64,000 bases of DNA from Quercus robur (Eukaryota; Streptophyta; Magnoliopsida; Fagales; Fagaceae): positions 29,221,530-29,285,529 of the forward strand of contig NC_065543.1 of assembly GCF_932294415.1 (NCBI RefSeq), in the 5' to 3' direction. Each line of letters begins with the position of its first letter. Within the stretch, counting starts at the first letter, position 1. Below are positions 1,128-64,000 of the stretch, piece by piece. The translations under genes and the position numbers were made by a program. Below the pieces are notes generated by a model that worked only from the letters and a program-made list of their open reading frames with translations, was not told where the DNA came from and made no database searches.

Positions 1128-1267
1128 ATAGGAATAAATATTCTAAAATTAATGATCTTGATGTCATTGTCTACTGGTCTATACATCGCATTGCCATCAA
1201 CCACTTGAAAATAAGAGAGTTCATACAATTTTCCTTCTTGCAGAAGAGGCTTGAACTTTTTAGCTAT
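1128..1267 (-). pseudogene. RPA/DUF223-like OB-fold exon fragment
   Basis: The minus strand encodes about 42 open codons containing KKFKPLLQEGKLYEL, then FQVV and MYRPVDNDIKI. This is the FxxLLxEGxxYxLxxFxV...YRP...KI pattern of the N-terminal OB fold in plant RPA70-like and DUF223 proteins, which bind single-stranded DNA. An in-frame stop lies just upstream and the frame runs into AT-rich sequence downstream, so this is a relict exon or a captured fragment. Such fragments are often carried by Helitrons, but no Helitron end was recognised here. Confidence 0.45.
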
Positions 1268-1663
1268 ATTATTTCAAATGATTGCATGTATTGAATTATT
1301 CTGCAAGTAAAGTGCATCAATTTTATATAGGTAGAGTTCATGGTATATATAATGATCGAACAATATTAAAAGCTATAGAAGAAAAACAAACCTGCTCATA
1401 GATTAAAATCATATTTAAACTAATAATATCATTATTTTTTGAGTTGATTGCATTCCACATCCTTGATATTCTGATCTTGACTTTCCAATTTTCTTTGTGT
1501 TTGTCTATACAAAGCTGATTAAGAAGAGAATATTACATCATCTTGGATCCCTACCTGTATAGATTAATAAAATTGAAAGTATTCGTACATTGAATGCATA
1601 ATCATGAACCTGGCTTTCTGCCCTCCTTGTACTTGAAATGTACTTGTATTTAACCATCAACAG

Positions 1664-1695
<32 letters not shown>

Positions 1696-2869
1696 ATACC
1701 TCTTGTGTCTCTTATAAAAGAATCCCATATTAATTAACAACAGTAGATTAAGCTGACGAACTCTTTCTCAATCAGTTGGGTCGAGAGGTGGATAGACTTG
1801 GACCTTACATTCATTGCCGCATCTGCAACCGTTGAAGCATTCCGGCCATTTCAAGTAGTAGCTTTTAAGGAATTAGAAAAAAGTAACTTGTAAGTACATA
1901 TTAATATATTATACAATCAAAAACTATACCAACGAACAAAACAGAGGACCATTAACCCTTCACGCCTCACCAAAACATAGCAAAGCAAATGAAGTAGGAC
2001 AAATACATAATAAATTATTACAAAGGCCTTTTTTGCCTGAAAACTTAGACTTCATTTAAAAAATAAATAAATAAATAAATAAAAAACACAAAAACAACAA
2101 CAATAACAAAGAAGCAGGACAGACGCAATAAAGAGAGAAACAATCACACAACTAAAACAGGCCAACATTGCTGGTTAACAAAGCCTTTGTTAACGTAGTC
2201 TGTAAAAGTTGGTAGCCTTTAATAGAACAATTTTCCTTCACCAACATGCAAACATGATATTGCAAATTCCATCGAAAGCAAATTCATCCACGCTAGCCCT
2301 TGGGATTCGAAAAATAGTAAATACATGTAAATAATTTAGTTTTATATATATACAGTCAAATACGTATTATTTCAGGCCAAATGCTTAGAGGATTTGGTGC
2401 ATAGGAAAGAACCAAGCAGAGGTTACCTTAATTCAAAACTTGAATCAAGAATTGTTATTTGAAAGAATCAAAGTTCAAATCAAATATCTCAAATTCAAAC
2501 CCAAATTAGCCTTCAAATATGGCCCCTATCAGCCATCAGGATTTGTTGTTTTTTTTTTATTTAGATCATTGAGACATTTTGTCAAACACTTACGGTTGGC
2601 CTATTTTCACAAAGGATATCAATTCTTATATCATTCTCTCAACCATTATACCAGCAAAACATGAGAAAGAGAAAGAATTACAGAGAGAAAAAGTAAGAAA
2701 GTTGGTGAATTTGTCAAACAAAATTGGATTTTGAATAACATACAAAAGACTTTGTATGTTTTGAATAAAAGGAAGATCGTTTATATATAAAATAAAATAA
2801 AAAAGAGAATAATCAAATAAGATAGCCAAATTGGATTGCAAACATATATTATTAAATAGAAACTCACCT

Positions 2870-3029
2870 GGAGAGGATACAGATTTTCAACGAAGGGTAT
2901 CGATTCATGTTGATGGGCTGGCCTTTCTTCACAAAGGATATTGGTTTGAGTGACAGAAGAAAGCTTGGAATGAAGGTAGAGAAGGGAAAAAGACCGGAGG
3001 CAGGGGAATATGTATGTAGAGAGAGGCAT
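2870..3029 (-). CDS. Candidate first exon of an unidentified minus-strand gene
   Basis: An ATG at 3027-3029 opens 53 codons that start MPLSTYIFPCLRSFSLLYLH, a hydrophobic, Ser-rich N-terminus like a signal or transit peptide. The frame ends at a good donor (CAG|GTGAGT, intron from 2869 downward). Inside the intron the frame soon meets stops. Possible downstream exons are the Cys-rich tail near 1768-1876 and the OB-fold fragment near 1200, but I could not join them in phase. It could equally be a relict. Confidence 0.25.
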
Positions 3030-3200
3030 GGAGGAAATTGTGTGTTTGAAGAAAGAGATGGGACTGCATGAAGAAGAAGTGAGGGAGTTTGATGAGCATG
3101 TGCTACTGTGTTTGCGTTGAAAGGGGAGTGTTTTTTTAATCGGGTTTCAGTTTTGGGCAGAAGGAAATTTTAGGGTTTTAGGCTTTTGGCTATTTTCTTT

Positions 3201-3562
3201 TACCTGAAATTTTCGGGTGTTTTTTTTTCTTTTTAATAATGTCGTGTTTTAGAAAAGTTTTTTTTTTTTAATATTGTGCTGACGTGGAAAATTGTGGGAG
3301 TTTCAAAGGTTTCGATTTTTTTACCTGAAATTTTTGGGTGTTTTTTTTTTCTTTTTAATAATGTCGTGTTTTAGAAAAGTTTTTTTTTTTTAATATTGTG
3401 CTGACGTGGAAAATTGTGGGAGTTTTAAAGGTTTCGATTTTTTTACCTGAAATTTTTGGGTGTTTTTTTTTTCTTTTTAATAATGTCGTGTTTTAGAAAA
3501 GTTTTTTTTTTTTTTAATATTGTGCTGACGTGAAAAAGTGTGTGAGTTTCAAATGTTTCATT
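3201..3562. repeat. Three 121-122 bp tandem repeats upstream of the cystatin-like gene
   Basis: Units start at 3201, 3322 and 3444, each beginning TACCTGAAATTTT and containing a long T run, GTCGTGTTTTAGAAAAG and TGCTGACGTGRAAA. Each carries a bZIP-type ACGT core (TGACGTGG at 3280-3287 and 3402-3409, TGACGTGA at 3526-3533). An (AT)n run follows at about 3563-3584. The array ends 260 bp before the cystatin start codon. Confidence 0.9.
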
Positions 3563-3820
3563 ATATATATATATATATATATATTACTATCTGTATTCGG
3601 TGTTAAAAACATTATTATATGTCGGCTAGTGGGCTTTCAACCAAAGCCGACTTAGGCTTGTGGGTTGCAATTAAAGCCATACGGCCCAACCATCTGCAAC
3701 AAATGGTAAAAATGTAAAGTAAATAGAAATGAGAATAGGGCTAAAAGAAACAACACGTGAGTGTGAGATCATCTATTTATTCATCATCGTAAAAAATAAA
3801 AATTTCTGATCTCATCTGAA

Positions 3821-6800
3821 ATGGCTATGGCGGCTGCTACTGCTGATGTCCTTGTCCCGAGGCTGGACGAAAAGCACGAGGAACTACAAGAGAAGAAGCA
3901 GAAGATGACAGATGAAGAAAGACAAGAGGAAGAAGACGTCCCCTATCGCGAGAAAGTTGGCTTACCTTTGGATGATGAACTTCAAGAGAAGAAGCAGAAG
4001 AAGACAGATGAAGAAAAACAAGACGTCCCATATCTTAGTGACGATGACGATGATGATTGTTTTCCTGGTGAGCTCCCTGAGATGACCCGTGCAGAATTGG
4101 CTTTGTATCATCAACAGGTTGAAGAAAGCGGGGTAAGCAATCATCGGATATAGTGAGTTTGTGCGTGATGATGCTCCCATGAATCTTGTCTCATTCTGAT
4201 TCGCAGGGCTTTGATGTTGACGACTTCTCCCACTCTTTCGCATGCGGTAGAATTGAGACGATGGGATTCAGGGGGGTCATTGATGATGCTGATAAGAAAG
4301 AACTTGGTGAATATTCTATGGAAGCAATCCACAAGTACAACACTGATGAGGTCTTTTCATAATCAAACCCCTTAATTAGTTACCTTTATTATTGCTGTTG
4401 GCTTTATTGTGTCTGGGACAATTTCTTGTAGAAGAAGAACTTTAAGTTCAAGGAGGTGGTGAAGGCAAATGTGCAGTGCGTTGAGGGCCTCATGTATTAT
4501 ATTACCTTCAATGCTGAGAATGCTTCTACTGCTACTATTGAAACCTTTCAAGCTGAAGTGTGGAGAGGAATTGGATTTGTAGAGGTCACATCTATTAGGG
4601 TAAAGCCCATCTCTATCTCCAAGCAAGGTAATTTCTTTTTCTATGCTCCATCAAATAAACCTTTGAAACTGCTCCTAAGTCATGCATTAGCTGGAAAAAG
4701 CATGATAATGTTTTACATTTGCAATTTCTTTTTTTGTATTAATTTGCTTGATGCATTCATGAGGTTACAATGCTGAGTTAACTTAGTTGGAGGCGAATGT
4801 TTGAAAAGGATCTACTCTCTAATAATACACGTCTTTTAACCTATTATGCTATTGCTCCTGCTTGACTTGTCTAGATTTGTAGCTTCAACCTTTTAGCGTG
4901 TGTGCATGTCCTTTGTTATTTGAATGATTACTTGAAAACTACCCTGTTTTAAGAGAGTTGTTATCATGCTTTGGGAACTTATTGTGCTTGGACTCATAGT
5001 TAGGATGTGTTTGAAACCTTCTATACATTTTATTTGGAAGATCTACTTTCTCTTATTTGCTTTTGGATTTTGATGAATTTAGGCTTAACGTCAAAAACTA
5101 CTAGTTTTCAAAACTTATTCTCGATCAAATTCGTGATATATCGGAGCCACTAAGACACTTTAGTTGTTATTTATGTTTTGGTTGTCATCTTCAGAACCCT
5201 TTAACTAGCTATTGCTGATTTATATTCTCTTACTACTTTTATGTTCCAGCGGTGCAGGCACCTTGATGCACCAAGAATATTGTTAATTTGAAACCTCGAA
5301 TTTTGGAATTTCACCGATGTAAATCTTTATCCAACTAAGGATTTTGTGGGGTTATTTTTTTTAATTACTTTCCTTATTGATGTACTCATTGGAAGCCTAT
5401 TTAAAATGGCTTTAGTAAGGATTTAAGGTAGACTTTGATGGTCGGAATTTTGTTCTGGAAATTCTTGAAGTGCTGGGTGTTGATTCCAAGCAAACCTAAG
5501 TGCTGATTCAAATGTGCAGTTGTTACGCTCCTTCAAAATACCACATTAAACACAATGGTGTTAAATTCTAAATGTCAGATGTGCACCACTGGGACCATAT
5601 CTTTAAAATCTTAAGATGCTCTCAAAATAAAATTTCCAAATGTCAGATGCCCCGATCAATTTATCCATCCAATAAAAAGATCTAGCACCCTTTTAGGCAA
5701 AACCCAAAAACTCCAAATGATCTAATTGAAGTCAAAACACCACAACTAATAAACCCTCTCACATGAATCAAAAGATAATACACTATCTCGCCACTATTTC
5801 AGCACAAACAATACCTGGCCACAATTTAAAAACCTCTTCTCCTTAGGTTGTCAACAATATCTTCCCTCACACCGCCATCCAAACATGAAAGGAAACTTGC
5901 ATAGGGGCCTTAACCCTCCAAATACTTTTTCAAGGAAAGATGACACAGATAAACCCTCTTAGCACGTTATAGTAAGAATGAATATCAAAACCCCCATTTT
6001 TCTTCAGTTTCCACCAAACACAATCCCCACTCACAGTAGGAGTATTAGACTCCAACATATGAAGAAAATTCAATTCCCAATTATTGAAATCACCAAGGAA
6101 TCACACATATCACTTTTTAATACGTTTACAATGTAAACAGCACCACATAAGCTTACATATACTTATATTCTATTGTTTGATCCATGTCTTACCTACATGA
6201 TTCTCTGATTTATTCTCTTATTTGAATACTTCGTTTCTAGCCAGCAAATGCCTTTTTTTTTTTTCCTGGTTAGAAAATGCAAGCTTATAAATTTTGAACA
6301 CTAAAGATGGAATCTATCTTCACTTGATTTTTTTTTTTTTTTTTCATTTGATATTCAGAAAAAATAAAAAAATAAATTGTTTCTCAACAAAAGCTTTATG
6401 AGATGCCAGTCTGAACTATGGATCCATAAAACCTATTGTTCTTACTAGATAACTTGGTGATGGACATTTAGTGATAATCTTAGATTTGAAATTATAATAA
6501 AGCTCCCAAGGGGTTGGAAAACTTCAAATTGCACTGTGCTTCTATGTTGCCTTGGCGGTTGTCCAAGTATGAAGGTTTTTGAAGGTTGGTAAAAGAACAT
6601 TGCTGAATACCCAAATAAAGATAAACTTCAAATTGCATGCAAGATGCAAGGAGTAAAAAAGAATCATGACCAATTGCAGCATGGGTGTAACTAATTATTG
6701 TGCAAGTGAGTAGGTTCCATTTGCTGATGCAGCAGAATATGGCCAAGGCAAAATCATGATTTGGTCATAGTTAGAATTGATTATTTAGGACTGTGGACCA

Positions 6801-19551: not shown

Positions 19552-20345
19552 TTATTCAACTGAAAACTCAAACAACATTGTGTGTTGATACTTCTCACCA
19601 GGTTCAACAACAATAGAAGGGAAGTTTGTTTGGTTTATGGCATTTGGGAATCCCTGAGTCTCCAAACATAGCCCGGCACCTCCTTTACCAACAACCCCAT
19701 TTACATAGTTCCCAGTGTAAAACTGCATCCCAGGGGCATTGCTTCACAAGTTAAGGATCCTCGAGCTTGATGGGCCCTGCACTTTCGCAGCATGTTTCAA
19801 ACCCATTTTTTCCTCCCCGCATGCCACAGTCTAGAACATAGTTTTGGTCATACCCTACACCAACCTCATGGATTGACTCACCTATCCTCTTCTCAGCAGT
19901 GAAATCAAAGGGGTATCCTTAACTGGCATGATTTCACCAGTTGGGATTGGGTTCTGATCCACAGGAGTAACATGGTTTGCCCTAATCTGAATTGAATGGT
20001 CAAGAACGTTTCCAGAGTTGTGGCCAGCTAAATTCCAGTATATATGCTGAGCTAAGCTGATTGGAGTTGGCTTGTTTGGCACAGCTTCCATGTCAAATCT
20101 CATTATTGTGCTTAAAGTAAGCGTGTTAGTTGCAGTCACAGAGACATCACCCGGGTAACCTAGTGACAGGAGAAACAGATATACGCAAATATGAGAGAGA
20201 GAATAAGAGACATTGAGCAAGAGCAAGAGAGACAAATTACCTTCCTCCCCATCAGAACTGTGATATTTGAAAGTGATGGATGGATTCTCGCCCTTCGTAA
20301 TATTAGTTGCCTCCCAAACCTTTTTATCAAATCCCTTGTGCCCAC
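19552..20345 (-). pseudogene. Galactose mutarotase 3'-half pseudogene
   Basis: Copies of exons 4 (20241-20345) and 5 (19552-20159) of the intact gene at 33823-36514. Exon 4 is still open ([18 protein letters not shown]). Exon 5 keeps [10 protein letters not shown] and the [12 protein letters not shown] histidine motif, but a frameshift near 19910 ends the frame just after VKDTP. Other indels include loss of 18 bp near 19676 and a short insertion near 19818. Exons 1-3 are absent: the duplication breakpoint lies in intron 3. It cannot encode an active epimerase because the Asp and Glu catalytic regions are out of frame. Confidence 0.93.
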
Positions 20346-20710
20346 CTAAAGAAAGGGGGAAAAGTTAGTGAGAAAGAGGGAGTGGGAGAGAGTATAATTC
20401 ATACTACATGAATATAGAACTTGCCCATTTTCAGTTACCTTAAAAGCAGACTTCTAAGAAAAAAGTAAGCTCACAAAATAAAACATAGGTTTTTTTTTTT
20501 TTTTTTTTTTGGGTTTCCAAAAGACTTTTCTATAATTGGAGTATAATCTTGATCTGAAGATTCTGAACTATGGGGAATACAGATCAATCCTACAAGCATA
20601 AAGTTCTGGTTTAGTTCTTGCAGGTACTAAGCATGTTTTTGAAATTCATTGGGGGTGTGGTGATTCAGAATTAACTTTGTGAGTAATACTTTGACTGATT
20701 TTTTGTACAG

Positions 20711-22718: not shown

Positions 22719-23691
22719 TTTATTACAATAACAAAAAATCATTGCAATAACATCAAAGTCATTGCAATAGTTTATGCAAGTTGTAATAAATTTTGAGGTA
22801 ATAAATTTGTGCAACAAAAAATTTCATTGCAATAATCACTAAATATTTTAATGACAACTTTGATGCAATGATATATATGTTGTTGCAATAAACAATTTAT
22901 TGCAATGATATATTTGTTATAATAAATAATTGTTTCATATTTGTCATTGCAATAGGTTGTAAAATAATTAATATCTATGTTGTTGCAATAAACAATTTAT
23001 TGCAATGATATATTTGTTGTAATAAATAATTGTTTCATATTTGTCGTTGCAATAGATTGTAAAATAATTAATATCAAGTAATCGCAATGATATATTCTCG
23101 TTTAATGTTTGTACTTCACGACCAACAACTACTAAATATATTGAATCAAATCATAACTGATTGAAGGAAATCCAAAAACTGCATTGTCATAGAAACGTAA
23201 ACTTCTTTCCATTTCCCATTATTTTTCTGAAAATTTTTCATTTTCAATCTAGTTCTCCAACACAAATAGGGAGATATTTATATCAATAATTCAATGTAAT
23301 AACCAAAGAATACAAAGTGAATTGGTATGAAATGCTTTATGCAATGCAATCTGATATGGTGAGACAGGTCCAACTTGGACCAAATATTCACTTCTCACTC
23401 CCTTGCTTCTCACTCCATGCTATTCTCTAATAAATTTCTAGCTACGGAACCATTAAATATTACATTTGGGCTTAAGTTTTTTAGTACAAAATTAGAAACA
23501 TATGGATCTAGGTCAGCTTTTAATAGTCAAACCAACAGATTAAGAGTTATAACAAAAGCAACTTTTAATGGTCAACAAGAAGAAGAAGAAGAAGAAGAAG
23601 AATTTTGAGTCATGAAATATTTATGTTATCCTTAACATGGAAACTAAGTTTTGTTTTATATTTATTTGTTATATACTACTTGAGAAATAAT
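22719..23691. repeat. AT-rich TTGCAATAA repeat and array flank
   Basis: 22720-23090 carries two ~101-bp subrepeats (TTGTTGCAATAAACAATTTATTGCAATGATATA..) like the AT half of the 677-bp unit. 23105-23260 matches 28845-28985, the sequence just after the array, so the array has related sequence on both sides. Diverged relatives of 23400-23700 occur at 13140-13640. Confidence 0.8.
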
Positions 23692-23865
23692 CAATTAAGG
23701 GTGTGTTTAGTTTAAAGAAAATTGATCAAGAAGAAGAAGAAGAAGAATTTATGCCTTAATGTGAGGGAGTTTCAAGAGTGAAAAAGAAAAACAATGACCT
23801 TTAATGTGACGGAGTTTCAAGAGTGAAGAAGAAAAGAATGTGAAAATTTTTGTAAAAGAAACTAA

Positions 23866-24590
23866 GGCTGCGTTTGAATCGACTTCAAACGCATTCCGGA
23901 AATGATTTTCCGGAAAATAGGTGTGTTTGGTTGGTCCGGAAAATTCTATTTTCCGGAAATTGAAATCCGTTGACCGAAAAAAAAGGCCTTTGACCACGGA
24001 AATCAATTACCGGCTCTATTTTCACTTCAAAGGATTTCCGGAAAAGAGAGAAAGAGAGAGAGAGAGAGAGCGCGAGCGCGAGGGAGAAGACCAGTCTGCG
24101 CCGATCTCCAGTCCTAAGACCAGTCCGACGACGGCTCGCCTTCGCGAGATCGCGCTGGATCGAGATCGCGATCGACGGCGTGATCTCGCGAAGCGTCGTT
24201 CGCGAGATCGCGCCGTCGATCGCGATCACGCCTTCGCGAGATCGCGCCGGATCGAGATCGCGATCTCGCGAAGCGTTGATCGCGATCTCGCGAACGCGAG
24301 ATCGCGCCGTCGCGAGATCGCGACGTTGATCGCGATCTCGCCTTCGCGAGATCGCGCCGGCGAGATCGCGATCCGCCGGCGAGATCGCGATCGCGCGATC
24401 TGGATTTGTGTTTTCTGCTTGTTTCTGGATTTGTGTTTTCCTTTCTTCTTTTCCAAACACTAGAAAATGTTTTCCGGAAAATTTTTTGAAATGCAACCAA
24501 ACACACAGAAATATTTTCATTTTCCAGAAATTAGCATTTCCGGAAAATATGTATTTTCCGGAAAACGTTTTACGGCAACCAAACACAGCC
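23866..24590 (+). mobile_element. Harbinger-like element with CpG-rich palindromic core, copy 1
   Basis: Ends GGCTGCGTTTG.. and (reverse complement) GGCTGTGTTTGGTTGCCG, flanked by TAA at 23863-23865 and 24591-24593. Neighbouring array units show the empty site GAAACTAAGTGAAG, so the borders are exact. Subterminal zones are full of TTTTCCGGAAAAT palindromes. A (GA)n run at about 24048-24072 precedes the GC-rich core. No transposase. Long open frames across the core, rich in RDRDLA-type repeats, arise from stop-free CpG repeats on both strands and are not taken as genes. Confidence 0.93.
24115..24400. repeat. TCGCGA / GATCGCGATC palindrome cluster
   Basis: Within about 260 bp I count 16 TCGCGA hexamers, many extended to GATCGCGATC or TTCGCGAGATCGCGCC. 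The block is far more GC-rich than its surroundings and could form many overlapping hairpins. A shorter version is at about 57305-57525. Confidence 0.93.
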
Positions 24591-27500
24591 TAAGTGAAGA
24601 AAAAGAATGACCTTTAATGTGAGGGAGTTTTAAGAGTGAAATGTGAAAATTTTTGTAAAAGAAAATGAGTAAAGAAGAAAAATAGTTTAAGCAGTCAAAG
24701 AATGCAAAGAGTATGAGTTGCTTTATATGGTGGAATCTAATATGGTGACAGGCCCAACTTGGACCCCTATTGACTTTACCGTACAACCATTCAAAGAATC
24801 AAATATTCACTTCTCTAATGCTACAGAACTATGCTATTACATTTGAGGTAATAAGTTTGTACAATAAAAATTTTCATTGCAATAATCACTAAATATTTTA
24901 ATGGCAACTTTGATGCAATGATATATATGTTGTTGCAATAAACAATTTATTGCAATGATATATTTGTTATAATAAATAATTGTTTCATATTTGTCATTGC
25001 AATAGGTTATAAAATAATTAATATCTATGTTGTTGCAATAAACAATTTATTGCAATGATATATTTGTTGTGATAAATAATTGTTTCATATTTGTTTCAAT
25101 TAAGGGTGTGTTTAGTTTAAAGAAAATTGATCAAGAAGAAGAAGAAGAAGAATTTATGCCTTAATGTGAGGGAGTTTCAAGAGTGAAAAAGAAAAACAAT
25201 GACCTTTAATGTGAGGGAGTTTCAAGAGTGAAGAAGAAAAGAATGTGAAAATTTTTGTAAAAGAAACTAAGTGAAGAAAAAGAATGACCTTTAATGTGAG
25301 GGAGTTTTAAGAGTGAAATGTGAAAATTTTTGTAAAAGAAAATGAGTAAAGAAGAAAAATAGTTTAAGTAGTCAAAGAATGCAAAGAGTATGAGTTGTTT
25401 TATATGGTGGAATCTGATATGGTGACAAGCCCAACTTGGACCCCTATTGACTTTACCGTACAACCATTCAAAGAATCAAATATTCACTTCTCTAATGTTA
25501 CAGAACTATGCTATTACATTTGAGGTAATAAGTTTGTACAATAAAAATTTTCATTGCAATAATCACTAAATATTTTAATGGCAACTTTGATGCAATAATA
25601 TATATGTTGTTGCAATAAACAATTTATTGCAATGATATATTTGTTATAATAAATAATTGTTTCATATTTGTCATTGCAATAGGTTATAAAATAATTAATA
25701 CCTATGTTGTTGCAATAAACAATTTATTGCAATGATATATTTGTTGTGATAAATAATTTTTTCATATTTGTTTCAATTAAGGGTGTGTTTAGTTTAAAGA
25801 AAATTGATCAAGAAGAAGAAGAAGAAGAATTTATGCCTTAATGTGAGGGAGTTTCAAGAGTGAAAAAGAAAAACAATGACCTTTAATGTGAGGGAGTTTC
25901 AAGAGTGAAGAAGAAAAGAATGTGAAAATTTTTGTAAAAGAAAATAAGTGAAGAAAAAGAATGACCTTTAATGTGAGGGAGTTTTAAGAGTGAAATGTGA
26001 AAATTTTTGTAAAAGAAAATGAGTAAAGAAGAAAAATAGTTTAAGTAGTCAAAGAATGCAAAGAGTATGAGTTGCTTTATATGGTGGAATCTGATATGGT
26101 GACAGGCCCAACTTGGACCCCTATTGACTTTACCGTACAACCATTCAAAGAATCAAATATTCACTTCTCTAATGCTACAGAACTATGCTATTACATTTGA
26201 GGTAATAAGTTTGTACAATAAAAATTTTCATTGCAATAATCACTAAATATTTTAATGGCAACTTTGATGCAATGATATATATGTTGTTGCAATAAACAAT
26301 TTATTGCAATGATATATTTGTTATAATAAATAATTGTTTCATATTTGTCATTGCAATAGGTTATAAAATAATTAATATCTATGTTGTTGCAATAAACAAT
26401 TTATTGCAATGATATATTTGTTGTGATAAATAATTGTTTCATATTTGTTTCAATTAAGGGTGTGTTTAGTTTAAAGAAAATTGATCAAGAAGAAGAAGAA
26501 GAAGAATTTATGCCTTAATGTGAGGGAGTTTCAAGAGTGAAAAAGAAAAACAATGACCTTTAATGTGAGGGAGTTTCAAGAGTGAAGAAGAAAAGAATGT
26601 GAAAATTTTTGTAAAAGAAACTAAGTGAAGAAAAAGAATGACCTTTAATGTGAGGGAGTTTTAAGAGTGAAATGTGAAAATTTTTGTAAAAGAAAATGAG
26701 TAAAGAAGAAAAATAGTTTAAGTAGTTAAAGAATGCAAAGAGTATGAGTTGCTTTATATGGTGGAATCTGATATGGTGACAGGCCCAACTTGGACCCCTA
26801 TTGACTTTACCATACAACCATTCAAAGAATCAAATATTCACTTCTCTAATGCTACAGAACTATGCTATTACATTTGAGGTAATAAGTTTGTACAATAAAA
26901 ATTTTCATTGCAATAATCACTAAATATTTTAATGGCAACTTTGATGCAATGATATATATGTTGTTGCAATAAACAATTTATTGCAATGATATATTTGTTA
27001 TAATAAATAATTGTTTCATATTTGTCATTGCAATAGGTTATAAAATAATTAATATCTTTGTTGTTGCAATAAACAATTTATTGCAATGATATATTTGTTG
27101 TGATAAATAATTGTTTCATATTTGTTTCAATTAAGGGTGTGTTTAGTTTAAAGAAAATTGATCAAGAAGAAGAAGAAGAAGAAGAATTTATGCCTTAATG
27201 TGAGGGAGTTTCAAGAGTGTAAAAGAAAAACAATGACCTTTAATGTGAGGGAGTTTCAATAGTGAAGAAGAAAAGAATGTGAAAATTTTTGTAAAAGAAA
27301 CTAAGTGAAGTAAAAGAATGACCTTTAATGTGAGGGAGTTTTAAGAGTGAAATGTGAAAATTTTTGTAAAAGAAAATGAGTAAAGAAGAAAAATAGTTTA
27401 AGTAGTCAAAGAATGCAAAGAGTATGAGTTGCTTTATATGGTGGAATCTGATATGGTGACAGGCCCAACTTGGACCCCTACTGACTTTACCGTACAACCA

Positions 27501-28845
27501 TTCAAAGAATCAAATATTCACTTCTCTAATGCTACAGAACTATGCTATTACATTTGAGGTAATAAGTTTGTACAATAAAAATTTTCATTGCAATAATCAC
27601 TAAATATTTTAATGGCAACTTTGATGCAATGATATAAATGTTGTTGCAATAAACAATTTATTGCAATGATATAATTTATATAATAAATAATTGTTTCATA
27701 TTTGTCATTGCAATAAGTTATAAAATAATTAATATCTATGTTGTTGCAATAAACAATTTATTGCAATGATATATTTGTTGTAATTAATAATTGTTTTATA
27801 CCGTACAACCATTCAAAGAATCAAATATTCACTTCTCTAATGCTACGGAACCATGCTATTACATTTGAGGTAATAAGTTTGTGCAATAAAAAATTTTATT
27901 GCAATAATCACTAAATATTTTAATGGCAACTTTGATGCAATGATATATATGTTGTTGCAATAAACAATTTATTGCTATGATATAATTGTTATAATAAATA
28001 ATTGTTTCATATTTGTCATTACAATAAGTTATAAAATAATTAATATCTATGTTGTTGCAATAAACAATTTATTGCAATGGTATATTTGTTGTAATAAATA
28101 ATTGTTTTATATTTGTTTCAATAAAGAAAATTGATCAAGAAGAAGAATTTATGCCTTAATGTGAGGGAGTTTCAAGGGTGAAAAAGAAAAACAATGACCT
28201 TTAATGTGAGGGAGTTTCAAGAGTGAAGAAGAAAAGAATGTGAAAGTTTTTGTAAAAGAAACTGAGTGAAGAAGAAAGTGAAGAAAAAAATGACCTTTAA
28301 TGTGAGAGAGTTTTAAGAGTGAAATGTGAAAATTTTTTTAAAAGAAAATGAGTAAAAAAGAAAAATAGTTTAAGTATTCAAAGAATGCAAAGAGTATGAG
28401 TTGCTTTATGTGGTGAAATCTGATATGATGATAGGTCCAACTTGGACCCCTATTGACTTTACCGTACAACTATTCAAAGAATCAAATATTCACTTCTCTA
28501 ATGCTACGGAACCATGCTATTACATTTGAGGTAATAATTTTGTGCAACAAAAAATTTCATTGCAATAATCACTAAATATTTTAATGGCAACTTTGATGAA
28601 TGATATATATGTTATTGCAATAAACAATTTATTGCAATGATATATTTGTTATAATAAATAATTGTTTCATATTTATCATTGCAATAGATTGTAAAATAAT
28701 TAATATCTATGTTGTTGTAATAAACAATTTATTGCAATGATATATTTGTTGTAATAAATAATTGTTTCATATTTGTCATTACAATAGATTGTAAAATAAT
28801 TAATATCAAGTAATTGCAATGATATATTCATTTCATGTTTGTACT

Positions 28846-33822: not shown

Positions 33823-36514
33823 TTATTCAACTGAAAACTCAAACAACATTGTGTGTTGATACTTCTCACCAGATTGAACAACAATAGAAGGGAAGTTTGG
33901 TTGGTTTATGGCATTTGGGAATCCCTGAGTCTCCAAACATAGCCCGGCATGCTTTCCATAAACAGCGCCTCCTTTACCAACAACCCCATTCACATAGTTC
34001 CCAGTGTAAAACTGCATCCCAGGGGCATTGCTCCACAAGTTAAGGATCCTAGAGCTTGATGGGTCCTTCACTTTTGCAGCATGTTTCAAACCTGCTTTTT
34101 CCTCCCCACAGTCCAGAACATAGTTGTGATCATACCCTAAACCAACCTCATGGATTGACTCACCTATCCTCCTCTCAGCAGTGAAATCAAAGGGGGTACC
34201 CTTAACTGGCATGATTTCACCAGTTGGGATTGTGTTCTGATCCACGGGAGTAACATGGTTTGCCCTAATCTGAATTGAATGGTCAAGAATGTTTCCAGAG
34301 TTGTGGCCAGCTAAATTCCAATATGTATGCTGAGCTAAGCTGATTGGAGTTGGCTTGTTTGGCACAGCTTCCATGTCAAGCCTCATTGTTGTGCTTGAAG
34401 TAAGCGTGTAAGTCGCAGTCACAGAGACATCACCCGGGTAACCTAGTGACAGGAGAAACAGATATGAACAGCAAATAGGAGAGAGAGAATAAGAGACATT
34501 GAGCAAGAGCAAGAGAGACAAATTACCTTCCTCCCCATCAGAACTGTGATATTTGAAAGTGATGGATGGATTCTCGCCCTTCGTAATATTAGTTGCCTCC
34601 CAAACCTTCTTATCAAATCCCTGGTGCCCACCTAAAGAAAGGGGGGAAAAGTTAGTGAGAGAGAGGAAGAGGAAGAGAGAGTATGATTCATACTACAATG
34701 AATATAGAACTTGTCAATTTTCAGTTACCTTAAAAGCAGAATTCTAAGCAAAAAGTAAGCTCACAAAATAAAACAGAGGTTTTTTTTTGGGTTTCCAAAA
34801 GACTTTTCTATAATTGGTGTATAATCTTGATCTGAAGATTCTGAACTATGGGGAATACAGATCAATCTTACAAGCATAAAGTTCCAACTGGTATTGATTT
34901 TATATTATGCAGAAAGGCACTTCCATCCATCATTTTTGTCAAACGCTGAGTTATCGCATTGCATACAAACAATGAGTGCGGATTTGATTTGGTTTGATCT
35001 TTTAAACTTGCTCCAAGCCAGGATGTATGCCAAGCCACCAATAACACATGCATAGAAGAATCCCATTCATTATGTGCAAGTACTGATCTCACCCTTTCTT
35101 CATTGGCTAATTAGGGTAAAATACCAAAGGAGCCTCAAACAAATTTACTTTTCTAGAAAAAAAAAAAAAATCCAAGGAAATATTTTCCCATAAATTCTTT
35201 TTCATTACAAATCACTTTTAAACCCACAAATCTTTTAATATCTTTCAATTACAAAATATAAGAGAAAAAAAACCATGTCTTTCACACTATCACCAGCATG
35301 CTAGATGGTAATATTCAGGTTTGTCAAGAGTCAACACTAGCAATTAATTTTCGGAAAAACCAAAAAAAATATTATTAAAACTTTCAACATTCAAACACAA
35401 ATTAGTAACAATTTTGGCTAATTGCAAAATTAAATAGATGATCTCACAGATATTTAGAACCATGATTTTCATGCCACACTGCCTAGATAAGATTGATTCA
35501 GACTAGCATTAAGGATAAAGAGTTTCACGATTGTCATACCATGGAGACTGTTTGGGGGCTTGTTGATAGGCAAAGAGTAATCAACCCCATTGAGTTTAAA
35601 CTTCCCATCTTTGATTCGGTTTGCAACCCGACCAACGATGCTGCCAAAATAGGGTGCAGCACCTTTCTGATCATACATACATCAAAACCCACAAAACTAT
35701 GAGATTAAATCAATGTTCACCAATTTAGAATAAAGATAAAGCTAAACCCAATAATTGATCTAATAATATGTATATCGCTATGCCCAAAATCATAAATCAT
35801 ATTTTCATGAATACATAACAAACTTTAAAATAATAATAAAAAAAAATTTTAATTGTTACAACAAGTGGGGAGGGGATTTGAACCCGACCAGACAATGTCG
35901 TTGAGTTACAAGGTTTTTGGTAAATATATAACATAACAAATGTTAAATGACATTTCTGAAAAAGTAAATGGATTTCACACAATTATCAAATTATAAAACT
36001 TTATCAAATACAAAAGTAGAAAAATCCAATTTATGCAGAAATCATACACCAAAAAAGACATTGCAGATAAAGGTGGATAGAATTCACAGAAGCATAAAGT
36101 TGCAACCTTTACCGAATAAATTCCTTTGCTTTAACTATAATAAATAAACAATTCCAATCCATGCAGAAATCAATGCACCCAGAAGCAGTTTGACCAAAAC
36201 AAGATTAAAAATCAAATGGGCTTCAGAGAATATTACTAGATATGGTTCAAGAGAGTCGAATCCAAGAACAACATCAGCCAATTTGCCTTCAAAATCCACA
36301 GAAACCAGACATCAGCAACATTCCCACAAACCCAGAAAGAAATAATAATAATAAATGAAAAGACTTGGCAATTGGGAAAAGAATATATAATAAAAATACC
36401 ATCTTTGTCAGGTACAGACAAGGAAGTGATGGTGCAGCCCAGGTTGGTGATGAGTGCACGCATGGTTCCATTGTTGAGTTCGAAAAGCTCGGGCTTCAGA
36501 TTTTGATCGGCCAT
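33823..36514 (-). CDS. Galactose mutarotase / aldose 1-epimerase
   Basis: Five exons on the minus strand: 36400-36514, 36237-36286, 35540-35666, 34527-34631 and 33823-34442. All join in phase with GT/AG introns to give 338 aa, the usual family length. The enzyme interconverts alpha and beta anomers of galactose and glucose, probably in the cytosol; I see no signal peptide. Visible motifs: [13 protein letters not shown] and [12 protein letters not shown] (substrate loop, about 67-103), H171 in [10 protein letters not shown]237 in GYDHNYVLD and E303 in [18 protein letters not shown], the family's catalytic/binding positions. Start [16 protein letters not shown] fits plant homologues. A SINE-like fragment sits in intron 2 and a truncated copy of exons 4-5 is at 19552-20345. 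Splice sites were assigned by eye. Confidence 0.95.
35835..35925 (-). mobile_element. tRNA-derived SINE-like fragment in a mutarotase intron
   Basis: Read on the minus strand: AAAAACCTTGTAACTCAACG (A-box-like TAACTCAACG), then GGTCGGGTTCAAATCCCC (B-box GGTTCAAATCC) and a T/A-rich 3' tail. The spacing fits a tRNA-like pol III promoter. No full tRNA cloverleaf, so not a tRNA gene. Confidence 0.5.
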
Positions 36515-36711
36515 CGGGTTTTCTTTCAGTTTGAGAATTGAGAGATAGAGAGAGTGTGTACTCAGGTTCTGATTTCTGAGCTGTGAGAGAATCGGATACT
36601 ATTTCAAGTGAGTCAGATATGGCACAATGACGTAATATTCTCCTACTATGTCTATTGTCAGTTACGATTATGTTAATCCTCTCTCCTCGTACTTTTGGAA
36701 AGGATTTTTCC

Positions 36712-56865: not shown

Positions 56866-57081
56866 AAAGACAAAACTGTGGGTTGTTCCAAGGTCTGCTG
56901 CTCAAATAATAATAATAATAAAAAGTTGTTCCAATATCCTATCAACGAACGCATTGCTCCAACTTTTAGTACAGAGATGGTACCTGCATGGAACAGTAAA
57001 AAATCTACATCAGTGATTTTTTTTTGATGAATTACATCAATAATTTTGATAACTACCATGTCACTTATGCGAAATAGATAA

Positions 57082-57605
57082 GGTTGTCTTTGGTTCGTAT
57101 AAAAGCATTTTCGGAAAATATTCCATTTTTTGGAAATGCTATTTTTCGGAAAGGAAAATGTTTTTATGTGTTTGGTTGCATTTTGAAAAATTTTTCGAAA
57201 AATATTTTCTGGTGTTTGGAAAAGAAGAAGGAAAAGACAAACCCAGAAAAACACGGACAAAACCCAGAAAAAAAAAAATCGTCAACGATCGACTGGCTAG
57301 TTCGATGAGGGGCGAGATCGCGATCGACGCTCGACTGGGTTCAATGGCATGGTGCTTCACGAGATCGCGATCGACGCTGATCTCGCGAAGCGTTGATCGC
57401 AATCTCGCGAAGCACCGTGCCAATCGACGCTTTGCGAGATCGTGATCAGCGCGGTGCTTCGCAAGATCGCAATCTCGGATCGCGATCGACGGCGCGGTCG
57501 TTGGACTGGAGCTCGCGAGATTAACTGGTGCGTGCGATCGACATGGACTGGAGCTCGAGGTTTGCCGGCGATCATCGGATTGGACTGGAGCTCGGGGGCC
57601 TCTTC

Positions 57606-57675
<70 letters not shown>

Positions 57676-57849
57676 GAATTCATTTGAAGTGAAAACAGGA
57701 ACGAAAATTCATTTCCGTAGTCAAAGCCTTTTTTTTTTTTTGTCAACGGAAATCAATTTCCAGAAAATTCTATTTTCCGGACCAACCAAACACCTGCATT
57801 TCCAGAAAAGTATTTCCGGAAGTGATTTTCACCCAAAACAAACACACCC
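57082..57849 (-). mobile_element. Harbinger-like element with CpG-rich palindromic core, copy 2
   Basis: 768 bp, ends GGTTGTCTTTGG and (reverse complement) GGGTGTGTTTG, flanked by TAA at 57079-57081 and 57850-57852. Internal order is reversed relative to 23866-24590: CpG core with GATCGCGATC (57305-57525), a (CT)n run (about 57609-57673), then the GTCAACGGAAATCAATTTCC and TTTTCCGGACCAACCAAACA subterminal zone. Six TCGCGA are visible, some decayed. No transposase. Confidence 0.88.
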
Positions 57850-57934
57850 TAAATCTCCGATATTTTACCCATTCCCAGAAATCCTAAAATTTCTTTCTTC
57901 TCCTCTTCTTCTACTGCTCGAACATCATTGATCA

Positions 57935-59841: not shown

Positions 59842-59865
59842 TTTTTTTGACTAACGTCAATTCCT

Positions 59866-62800
59866 ATGGCCAGCTCTTCCTCTTCTGACTCCACCAACAC
59901 CATTGCTACAGCCAATCCATCCTCTCACAACCTCATCAACCTTCACCACAATACCACAATCAAATTAACCCGAGACAACTATCTCCTTTGGAAAGCTCAG
60001 ATTGTTCCTTACATTAAAGGTCTCCATCTTTTTGGCTTTCTTGATGGAACCAAACCTGCACCCCCACAATCTATCACTAGCCAATCTTCAAATGGTGTAG
60101 CCACTGTCACTACAAATCCTGAATTCCTTCAGTGGCACCTTCAAGATCAACTTATCCTCAGTGCATTGACATCATCACTGTCAGAATCTATACTCACCCA
60201 TGTGGTAAAATGCCTCACCTCTCGAGATGTTTGGCAAACTCTTGAACGCATGTTCTCTTCTTAAGCTAGAGCATGACTCATGCAAATTCATTATCAAATT
60301 GCCACACTGAAAAAGGGCAATCTTTCTGTTGCAGATTATTTTCAGAGATACACCAATCTAGTTGATACTCTTGCTTCCATAGGAAATCCTCTAAATGATT
60401 ATGAGTTGGTCTCATATTTTCTGTCCGGTCTTGGCTCGGAGTATGATTCCTTTGTAACATCAATTACAACACAAGCGGATCCAATGACTCTTGGTGATCT
60501 TTACGGTCATCTTCTTGCTCATGAACTCAGGCTTGAGCAAAACCAACCTGCTGTTGACTTAGCTCTTGTAAGTGCTAACATTGCAGCAAAGAAAGGATCA
60601 TCACGAGGGGGTCATGGTGGTCGGTCTCAACAATTTTTCTCATCTGGTAGAGGCCATAACTCCAACAACAATAGCAACAGAAACTTCCGTGGCAGGGGGC
60701 GTGGTCGTGGTTCGACCTCTTTTTCTGGAGCTCCTCGCACCATCTGTCAAGTCTGCCTCAAACCCGAACATGATGCATTGGCTTGTTATCATCGATTTGG
60801 CAACTCTTATCAAAGGGATTCGAATCAAAACATGCAAGCTTATTTTGCTGCACCTTAACCTGTAATAGATCCTTCCTGGTATCCAGATTCTAGCGCAGCA
60901 CATCACATAACTTCTGATCTTGCCAATCTGAACATGCAAGCTGAAGAGTACACAGGTTCAGACCAAATCAAGATGGGTAACAGTACTGGTTTAGATATTA
61001 AACACATTGGCTAAACCAAAATTCTCACACCCACTACTTCTTTTCTTCTACATGATGTTTTGCATGTTTCTTTAATTAAAAAGAATTTATTGACTGTTCA
61101 CAAATTTACCAAAGACACCAACACTTATCTTGAATTTCATCCTTCTTGTTTCTTTGTGAAGGATCGAGCTACGGGGAAGGTTTTGGTGCAAGGCCCGAGT
61201 AACCATGGGTTATATTCATTTCCATCTTCTCTATTCCGTCGTCGTGGTCCTTCTTCTCGTCTAGTTTCCTCTGCATTTGTCAGTGAACGCGCCACACTCA
61301 CATAGTGGCATTCTCGTCTTGGACATCCAGCCTTGCGAGTCGTCTCTCATGTGGTTTCAAAGTTTGGTCTTCCAATGTTTGCAAATAAAATGGACAGCTC
61401 TTGTCCAGCGTGTCTTAGTTCTAAGAGTCATAGATTAATTTTTCCTTTATCTAATTCTCATGTAGCAGCTCCTTTGGAATTTATTTACGCTGATGTTTGG
61501 GGGCCGTCCCCTGTCTGTTCTAGCATTGGAAATAAATATTATGTTTCTTTTGTGGATTCCTTTAGTCGATACACATGGCTCTATCCAATGTCTTGCAAAA
61601 GTGATGTTTCTTCCATATTCCTCAAATTTCAAAAATATGTTGAACGATACTTTGATCTAAAAATAAAAACAATTCAATCTGATTGGGGTGGTGAATATCG
61701 CTCCCTCCACCAAATCCTCCAAAGTAATGGCATCTCACATCGGTTATCCTGTCCTCATACACCTCAACAAAATGGGGTCATTGAGCGTAAACACCGTCAC
61801 TTAGTTGAAACTGGCCTTGCTTTAATGTCTCATGCTGGTGTTACCTTAAAATTTTGGGATGATGATTCAAACGGCTTGCTATCTCATTAATCGATTGCCC
61901 ACTCCACTTCTTCAAAATTCCTCTCCTTATGAAACACTCTTTTGTTCCCCTCCTGATTACTCTCTCTTACGAGTTTTTGGTTGTGAATGTTGGCCTAATC
62001 TTCGTCCTTATACTGCCCATAAACTTCAACCTCGTTCTCTTCCTTGTATTTTTCTGGGCTATAGTTTGCTGCATAAGGGATACAAGTGTCTTCATTCTTC
62101 CACAGGCCGAATATATATCTCCAGAGATGTCATTTTTAAGGAGACCCATTTTCCTTTTCTAAACTCTTCACCCTTCAGTCCAATTTCTTCTCAGTCCACT
62201 GAGTCTGTCATGCCTATGGTTACCAAGTTTGGGCCGGCCCATTCACCTATCTCTACAAGCCCGATTCCTTCACTCACCTTACCAACCCACTTCACCATAC
62301 CTAGCCCAATCCTACAAAACCCAAAACAATCTGCTCCAAATGCCTTTCATCCTCCACCTGTAAACCCCATCTCTTCTTCCTTAGCTAACACCTCATCAGC
62401 TTCTTCTATAAGTGAACCAACTTTCCAACCTCAAAGTGAACCAACTATCCAACCTCAACCCACTGTTCAGCCAACCCACCCAATGACTACAAGGTCCAAG
62501 AACAATATTTCCAAAACCAAAAACCACACCGATGGCACCATCCGTTATCCCGTCCCCACGACTCTCTTGGCTGAACATGATTTTAGTGATTTTGAACCTA
62601 CTTGTTACTCTACAGCTTGTAAGTTTCCAGAATGGCGAGAGGCTATGAACAAGGAGTTTAATGCTTTGCTCAAAAACAAAACATGGGTCCTTGTTCCTCC
62701 AATGGCTGCCACCAATGTTATTGGCTGTAAGTGGGTGTTTCGCATAAAACGGAAAGTTGATGGTTCTATAGAACGCCACAAGGCCCGACTCGTTGCCAAA

Positions 62801-64000
62801 GGTTTTCATCAACGATTTGGAGTTGATTTCACTGAAACTTTCAGTCCAATTGTGAAACCTACAACGGTACGTATTGTGCTCTCCATTGCTATTTCTTTGG
62901 GCTGGCAAATTCGACAAATTGATGTCCATAATGCCTTTCTACATGGTTTTCTCTCCGAGGATGTTTTTATGCACCAGCCACCGGGATATGTCCATCCAGA
63001 CTATCCTAATCATATATGTAAACTTCAAAAGGCTCTCTATGGCTTAAAGCAGGCACCTAGAGCATGGTTTTCCAGACTTACTTCCAAGCTGATCTCACTT
63101 GGTTTCAAGGGTTGTTGTTCAGATACTTCACTTTTCATCTACAAAAATCATCTTTTTACTATGTATATTTTGATTTATGTAGATGACATCTTAATTACAT
63201 GCTCTAACTCATCTGCCATTACTGAGTTGATTTCACTACTTGGTGTGGATTTTGGCATTAAAGATTTGGGCTCTTTGAATTTCTTCCTCGGCATTGAAGT
63301 TCTTCCTCATGGAAATGGTGTTCTTCTTTCTCAAAGGCGATATATTCTAGATTTATTGAAGAAAACTAACATGCTTGAAGCTAAACCAGTCAATACACCT
63401 ATGGCTGCTTCAACTAGTTTATCTGCCTTTGATGGAACTTCTTATGAAGACCCCATACTTTTTTCGTAGCACAGTTGGAGGCCTGCAATACTTGGCTATT
63501 ACACGGCCTGACATTGCCTTTGTTGTTAATAAACTCTCTCAGTTCATGCACCGCCCAACTGTTACTCATTGGCAAGCTACTAAACGCCTTCTCCGATACC
63601 TCAAACATACACTCAATTTTGGTCTTCACTTCCAACGTTCCAATGTTTCTTTCCTTCAAGCATACTGCGATGCTGATTGGGCAAGTTCTCGTGATGACAG
63701 AAGATCAACTGGTGGCTATTGCATTTATCTTGGCACTAATCTCATCTCTTGGAGTTGCAAGAAACAAGCTACTGTAGCTCGTTCAAGCACTGAAGCCGAA
63801 TATAAAGCTTTGGCTAACACTACAGCAGAAATATCTTGGTTGACTTCTCTGCTTTTTGAACTTGGCTTTCCAGTTTTACCTTCACCTCTTTTATGGTGTG
63901 ACAACATTGGTGCTACATATTTATCCTCCAATCCTGTGTTCCATGCCCGTACAAAACATGTTGAAATTGATTTTCACTTTGTACATGATATGGTGGCGCG
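59866..64000 (+). pseudogene. Ty1/copia gag-pol polyprotein, broken and truncated by the window
   Basis: ATG at 59866 opens a copia gag (LTRDNYLLWKAQI). Then come a CCHC knuckle (about 60744-60785), a protease core with DSSA in place of the usual DSGA (about 60886), a GAG-pre/zinc-binding region, and integrase with its D..D..E triad (about 61490, 61679, 61783). Reverse transcriptase (62630-63320, YVDD at about 63176-63187) and RNase H (DADW, SSTEAEY, CDN) follow. Five in-frame stops lie at 60262, 60274, 60856, 61012 and 61303, with frame shifts near 61860 and 63465. The order IN-RT-RH marks copia. It cannot make a full polyprotein; the end of RNase H and the 3' LTR lie outside. Confidence 0.95.

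Follow-up and report, generated by a model that had tools for sequence, protein, structure and literature searches.

Two elements in the window (the whole 64,000-nucleotide stretch of Quercus robur DNA analysed here) belong to a family of Tourist-like, non-autonomous PIF/Harbinger MITEs with a CpG-saturated, palindromic and hypervariable core. We consider it probable that this family was mobilised in trans by larger relatives, that its core derives from their leader and was remodelled during gap repair, that its CpG density reflects the youth of the copies, and that one truncated copy was captured by a long-TIR family. The features of the window on which this account builds are given below.

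23691..28776, plus strand: host tandem array, unit ~677 bp; copy 1 lies in unit 1, the sister units are empty sites
23863..23865, no strand: 5' target-site duplication (TAA) of copy 1
23866..24590, plus strand: copy 1, full-length non-autonomous PIF/Harbinger MITE of 725 bp, young subgroup L8/R7 (genome relatives matching end to end; identity to the end consensus)
23866..24040, plus strand: copy 1 left end, left type L8, with TIR GGCTGCGTTTG and a TTTCCGGAAA-rich subterminal zone
24045..24090, plus strand: copy 1 GA/GC-type microsatellite, between left end and core
24135..24401, plus strand: copy 1 CpG-saturated palindromic core with 16 TCGCGA, direct and inverted repeats, hypervariable among copies
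24406..24590, plus strand: copy 1 right end, subterminal zone with TTTCCGGAAA, TIR GGCTGTGTTTGG as read from outside
24591..24593, no strand: 3' target-site duplication (TAA) of copy 1 (unit minus element and one TAA differs from its nearest sister by 4 mismatches in 686)
57079..57081, no strand: TAA target-site duplication of copy 2, low side
57082..57849, minus strand: copy 2, full-length, 768 bp, older, sister subgroup, CpGs partly decayed
57082..57266, minus strand: copy 2 right end (79% identity in alignment to the copy 1 right end)
57279..57600, minus strand: copy 2 core with 6 TCGCGA, 3 GATCGCGATC and CpG observed/expected 1.69
57602..57673, minus strand: copy 2 CT/GA microsatellite
57678..57849, minus strand: copy 2 left end (80% identity in alignment to the copy 1 left end)
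57850..57852, no strand: TAA target-site duplication of copy 2, high side

Two Copies and an Empty Site

The first-pass annotation had described two TAA-flanked copies in opposite orientation, and with copy 2 reversed the two align from end to end, their ends being 79-80% identical. Its count of 16 TCGCGA in the first core is borne out, all of them falling within 24142-24390 (copy 2 has 6); the window holds 24, against 1.38 expected from dinucleotide shuffles, and 24 was reached in 0 of 100 shuffles. The palindrome GATCGCGATC, reported for both cores, occurs seven times in copy 1 and three times in copy 2, and the GA/CT microsatellite is likewise present in each. The observed/expected ratio of CpG reaches 2.12 for core 1 and 1.69 for core 2, compared with 0.53 for the window as a whole; as single-stranded DNA, core 1 folds at -132 kcal/mol (shuffle mean -100, sd 3.3, n=200; z -9.7). 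The subterminal zones are common to both copies as claimed, but not through the exact motif TTTTCCGGAAAA, of which copy 1 has three and copy 2 none; CCGG is found eight times in the end zones of copy 1 and twice in those of copy 2, where CCAGAA is commoner (4 vs 1). Among the six stop-to-stop frames of copies 1 and 2 no Pfam family scored above its cut-off, and two sub-threshold matches fall where the GA tract reads as (Arg-Glu)n. Searches of viral_contigs with the exact end patterns returned 0 and 2 matches, taken as chance. Elsewhere in the window, frames at 59851-63469 (plus strand) resemble by eye a Ty1/copia polyprotein, and others at 19882-20364, 33823-34692, and 36236-36598 (minus strand) resemble, also by eye, duplicated aldose 1-epimerase genes.

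The host array of copy 1 supplies its empty sites. From flank to flank, the step between unit 1 and the next unit is 1405 bp, i.e. 677 plus 728, the excess being equal to the 725-bp element and one 3-bp duplication. Unit 1 without the element and one TAA differs from sister units by 4, 6, and 9 mismatches in 686 and by 15 in 674, and from a more diverged sister by 29 in 665. With so few mismatches to its empty sisters, the insertion postdates the separation of the units, unless conversion has homogenised them. Furthermore, copy 1 agrees with the end consensus of its subgroup at 174 of 174 positions on the left and 139 of 140 on the right, a single difference in 314, and a young copy is the best supported reading. 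Full-length array units were found only at 23691-28776 among the best 40 of 446 genome candidates; the units begin near TAAGGGTGTGTTTAG, which is Harbinger-TIR-like.

A Family on Every Large Contig

The assembly searched is the window's own (785.7 Mb, 42 contigs, 12 of them large). Copy 1 as query yielded 106 matches from the best 40 of 1,112 candidates and copy 2 yielded 98 from the best 40 of 1,010; among the matches listed for the two queries there are some 80 distinct places, some of them partial, on all 12 large contigs, and the family thus extends well past the two copies on which it was first described. We compared 60 loci (L011-L070, copy 2 being L050), which as top-scoring matches are biased toward sequences like copies 1 and 2; nine with partial or unclear ends were left out and 51 kept. 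Identical 3-bp duplications flank 46 of these 51 copies (19 TTA, 16 TAA, 4 GTA, and 7 others), the four GTA pairs representing one duplicated insertion. The TAA duplications noted for the window therefore recur across the family, with TAA/TAA or TTA/TTA in 35 of 51. Left TIRs are mostly GG(C/G)TGCGTTTGAAT or GGGTGTGTTTGTTT and right TIRs GGCTGTGTTTGGTT; the short TIRs are thus GGCTGCGTTTGAAT / GGCTGTGTTTGGTT plus close variants, of PIF/Harbinger type. The short TIRs of PIF/Harbinger elements are of the GG..TGTTTG type. A TIR motif of this type is also used for Medicago PIF/Harbinger elements in the study that describes them (PMC2213677). The 51 copies measure 623-909 bp and contain 7-21 TCGCGA in the 33 of copy-1 type and 3-12 in the 18 of copy-2 type. 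In the copies compared, ends are homogeneous within subgroups and cores heterogeneous.

We assign the family to the Tourist-like PIF/Harbinger MITEs because of these TIRs and duplications, the many copies, and larger elements with matching ends and DDE_Tnp_4/Myb-like exons (see below), evidence that also upholds the original label of a Harbinger-like family. That the core is an assembly artefact or a contaminant has a vanishingly small likelihood: the matches are spread over 12 of 12 large contigs, identical duplications border 46 of 51 copies, copy 1 has an empty site, and the cores of the duplicated loci L051, L052, and L053 are of equal length. We accordingly rejected contamination and assembly error. 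Two local arrangements deserve mention. At L021 (G000:C35:26952773-26955421) two MITE copies abut with one TAA in common. At L051, L052, L053, and L055 (G000:C2:94663938-94938054) one insertion is present four times at intervals of ~82-96 kb, apparently within a segmental duplication.

Relatives with a Transposase

A profile search of the assembly with PF13359 gave at least 177 matches (best 150 of 895 candidates). Around the first 30 of these loci a 12-of-14 rule, which also overlooked the weaker TIR pair of L101, detected no paired TIRs, and a search for MITE ends there gave nothing convincing; of three further loci that we read, matching ends were found in L101 only. This element has TTA duplications and TIRs, both of its ends align to the MITE ends at 74-81%, and its exons match DDE_Tnp_4 (PF13359) and Myb_DNA-bind_3 (PF12776) above cut-off. 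The L101 transposase exon as query gives at least 150 matches, of which the first 68 reach 84% identity or higher, and a 193-residue frame without stops occurs in 11 of the matches listed, including L104 and L106/L107. In L104 the element spans 1164-5895, with TTA duplications and both domains above cut-off; its left end is 84% identical to the MITE left type L10 and its right end 82% to right type R6 over 137 bp. Where L101 and L104 align to the MITE ends, the aligned stretch is 117-176 bp long at the left end and ~135 bp long at the right end. Autonomous-type Harbingers with like ends had been proposed as something to look for, and L101 and L104, with predicted transposase and Myb-like domains between matching ends, are candidates for that role. 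Ends were read in 11 transposase copies in all, and where they match the MITE consensuses they are 71-94% identical to them. The best match is the left end of L106/L107 (94% to L10), whose right TIR tip is missing; the right end of L121 did not match the MITE consensuses, and no left end among the 11 copies read was near-identical to the young type L8 (best 83%). L104, L108-L115, and their relatives have 193-residue stop-free transposase frames, very similar ends, and a leader of variable repeat number, which suggests a recent burst of larger Harbinger elements.

From these likenesses, larger Harbinger elements encoding a DDE transposase and a Myb-like protein presumably mobilised the MITEs in trans until very recently. 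The transposase would find what it requires in the ends, in the TIRs and, probably, in the subterminal TTTCCGGAAA motifs. The core had been suggested to act in transposase binding; this is unlikely, since TCGCGA is absent from all three larger elements read end to end (L101, L104, and L105). What these elements have instead is a CpG-rich stretch with GATC repeats (33 CpG per 250 bp in L104), which is preceded by the left end and a GA tract and in which the repeat number varies, by eye, among close copies. The MITE core occupies the place of this GA tract and leader, and probably grew from it: the leader's position and composition point to it as the source, the direct comparison with the MITE core giving a single weak match (67.5% over 197 bp, E 3e-4).

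Changing Cores beside Stable Ends

Cores differ between copies whose ends are nearly the same. Among 16 young copies, the cores of 11 pairs with 0-2 end mismatches in 315 are set apart by 1-6 gaps, each at least 8 bp long. The five pairs with 0-1 end mismatches average 2.6 differing core blocks, and the 23 pairs with at least 12 average 5.5, the core alignments being ambiguous. The palindromes and repeats of the core would ease template switching and slippage, and the likely occasion is gap repair following excision, in which a different copy would at times be the template. Gap repair with template switching would yield different cores beside near-identical ends, reassorted ends, and inverted-looking cores.

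Alternatively, the core may be a fast-mutating minisatellite that changes by slippage and unequal exchange independently of transposition, near-identical ends then reflecting recency only; we hold this to be rather unlikely. Duplicates of one insertion served as a test of in-place change, with flank identities compared, and they point both ways. Cores of L051, L052, and L053 show 2-3 mismatches, no gaps, and equal length, which speaks against such a minisatellite, whereas the core of the fourth duplicate, L055, departs from that of L051 by 14 and 10 bp, and in another duplicated insertion (L058, L060, and L065) core blocks of 20-54 bp differ among all three, block indels that a minisatellite would predict. 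Palindromic direct repeats also favour slippage. Rearrangement is thus not solely linked to transposition, and these duplicates speak against a core that changes only with transposition. Yet the rise from 2.6 to only 5.5 core blocks with end divergence is unlike a clock starting from zero, although saturation of the alignments could mimic it, and slippage does not explain how left and right ends came to be exchanged among elements, as described below. In-place core change appears rarer per end substitution than change between independent insertions: by hand count, 5 events per ~25 end substitutions in duplicates vs 5 per ~2 in independent insertions (conditional binomial P ~4e-4), an excess only suggestive because the quartet was picked post hoc and older cores are less palindromic.

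Some cores seem to have been inverted. Against L011, the inverted core scores higher than the direct one in L037 (102 vs 74) and L043 (84 vs 72), the outcome against L012 being mixed; this test is weak by itself, given the palindromic nature of the core and 12 further cores, mostly of copy-2 type, that also score higher inverted against L011, at low scores. The position of a right-inner tag, CAAGCCACAACCC, is a firmer sign than alignment scores. In many copies it lies ~170 bp from the right tip; in L037 it is flipped and lies ~240 bp from the left tip, and L024 has both placements.

Left and right ends have been reassorted. Left-end types comprise L8 (23 copies, including copy 1), L9 (3), L10 (8), and the copy-2 types (18). 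Between L8 and the 11 L9/L10 copies the left distance is 0.230 (the L8-L10 left consensus difference falling to ~15% once gaps are allowed globally) and the distance over the right outer 140 bp is 0.028, while between L8 and the 18 copies of the copy-2 set the values are 0.231 and 0.158; left types L8 and L9/L10 therefore have one recent right end in common. The inner marker that separates right types R6 and R7 (~45 bp) is partly a difference in repeat number, so we base reassortment on the left end vs the right outer 140 bp. The combination L8/R6 is seen in five of the copies compared, and L125, found by its core alone, mixes the types further. A similar pattern holds in the transposase-bearing element L106/L107: the right zone is identical to that of four siblings at 119 of 119 positions and to a fifth at 118 of 119, and the left end shows 20-21 differences in 174 to the siblings and 10 in 174 to L10. 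Exchange requires two elements, so slippage alone is insufficient. As mechanism we prefer template switching in gap repair over recombination between adjacent elements. In favour of the latter, the abutting pair at L021 shares its TAA, and tandem pairs of this kind could give chimeras through recombination.

Youth and Decay of CpG Sites

In an AT-rich, methylated genome the CpG density of the core had been attributed to youth, protection, or continual re-amplification. Youth is the best supported of the three, re-amplification receives some support from cores rearranged while the family proliferated, and protection receives none. The core values that follow count only sites still motif-like and may overstate core retention. 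In the 16 young copies the ends hold 273 CpG vs 4 TG/CA (0.986) and the core motif 388 of 406 (0.956), whereas in the 18 copies of copy-2 type the ends hold 189 vs 63 (0.750) and the core motif 247 of 306 (0.807). For the remaining subgroups, retention in ends and core is 0.928 and 0.983 (L8R6, 5 copies), 0.968 and 0.924 (L10R6, 8 copies), and 0.952 and 0.903 (L9R7, 3 copies). CpG density is mainly a matter of youth, and in this MITE family it tracks copy age rather than protection; CpGs would persist because the copies are young, decaying after insertion in ends and core alike.

An unmethylated or selected core, acting as promoter, insulator, or replication-pausing site, would also keep its CpGs, but we regard this as decidedly improbable. 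Similar CpG loss in the ends and core of older copies leaves special protection of the core unsupported, and the larger elements read end to end have no TCGCGA. What can be said for it concerns the ends and not the core: between the L8 and copy-2 consensuses the left ends have 9 CpGs in common (of 12 and 10) at 18.9% non-CpG difference, so lineages that kept moving retained CpGs. In the remaining comparisons of consensuses CpGs survive no better than the rest of the sequence, with 6 in common (of 11 and 10) at 25% difference for the L10 and copy-2 left ends, and 3 (of 6 and 5) at 14-16% for right ends between subgroup consensuses. We infer, with the reservation that the left end kept them in one comparison and the right end poorly, that lineages still moving retained several CCGG motifs, perhaps since the transposase would need them.

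The Core inside a Long-TIR Family

A query with the core alone disclosed 16 new places among the best 40 of 292 candidates. Of the five that we read, four have MITE ends on both sides; the fifth, L128 (G000:C39:7565593-7566874), does not, and inverted arms of 195 bp at 99% identity (within the stretch read) surround a core whose identity to MITE cores reaches ~80% across about 300 bp. With L128 as query there were 224 matches from the best 40 of 1,443 candidates, the arms recurring at many places and several matches running across the core; three more of the 16 core matches lie inside elements of this family (C39 at 9.09 Mb, C5 at 52.86 Mb, and C35 at 23.64 Mb). Among the matches listed, the arms are 98-99% identical at ~10 places and lower at others. 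The ends GGGATAATTACAGTAAACCC and identical 9-bp duplications are present in all four long-TIR copies with both flanks read. A 9-bp duplication with long TIRs, which we take to be the criterion for Mutator-like elements, points to such an affiliation for the L128 family.

In two of three further long-TIR interiors, L138 and L139, right-subterminal MITE sequence is present and breaks off at one and the same point, 119 bp short of the MITE tip; this common breakpoint implies that the long-TIR family took its core from a MITE copy. The simplest reading of these junctions is that a truncated Harbinger MITE was captured once and later amplified: a copy lacking 119 bp of its right tip would have been taken up by an unrelated long-TIR element and then spread with it. 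Pack-MULEs favour GC-rich pieces. A core of host or satellite origin, captured independently by two transposon families and not Harbinger-born, would account for its presence in two unrelated families and for the weak direct similarity of core and leader, but the breakpoint common to L138 and L139 and the MITE ends flanking four of the five new core matches read make it improbable. A bolder extension of the capture model would regard the core as a recombinogenic cassette that drives the exchange of ends, is shuffled at each transposition cycle, hops between superfamilies, and rides any active transposase; to this we give little credence.

Comparison with Known Systems

Like the Tourist MITEs, i.e. 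mPing/Ping-Pong of rice and PIF/Tourist of maize, the present family has a TAA/TTA 3-bp duplication, the same type of TIR, and a larger transposase-bearing relative. mPing is short and homogeneous, unlike the longer MITE family described here with its hypervariable GC-rich core. Both systems are named in the Medicago study (PMC2213677). The long-TIR family resembles the Pack-MULE and Pack-TYPE elements (see PMC8903248) in having captured and amplified foreign GC-rich DNA; it departs from Pack-MULEs in that what it captured is a MITE, truncated and with a repeat core, instead of a gene fragment, its Mutator-like character being defined by TIRs and duplication only. In pineapple, microsatellite-associated MITEs, likely Mutator-derived, have (TA)n target sites, and share with our family a recent burst and a link to dinucleotide repeats (PMC8449440), whereas the GA tract is here internal to the element.

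The closest parallel is MtPH-A6-4 of Medicago truncatula, a group of PIF/Harbinger elements in which 18 of 23 contain imperfect 60-bp repeats (2-35 of them), and for which abortive gap repair within the repeats was proposed and an inversion reported (PMC2213677). As in our family, there are PIF/Harbinger elements, some of them short, whose internal tandem array varies, together with an inversion inside the element and empty sites at paralogous positions, so a repeat-cored Harbinger remodelled by gap repair was already known (PMC2213677). The first-pass statement that no MITE of such architecture has been described was thus too strong. The two systems differ in that the Medicago elements have 60-bp repeats and a AAACNNCTTATT motif and ours CpG-saturated palindromes; neither reassorted ends nor export into another transposon family figures in the available part of the MtPH-A6-4 description (PMC2213677). 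For a CpG-saturated palindromic core we found no precedent in open-licence papers with a few search terms. As far as that literature goes, the core itself, the reassortment of ends, and its export to a second family are new, as are rearranged cores in copies with near-identical ends. Identical ends beside differing cores amount to a natural tape recorder of transposition, with which one may ask whether rearrangement happens in resting copies, at excision, or during gap repair, and the long-TIR elements add the case of a piece of one transposon superfamily riding inside another.
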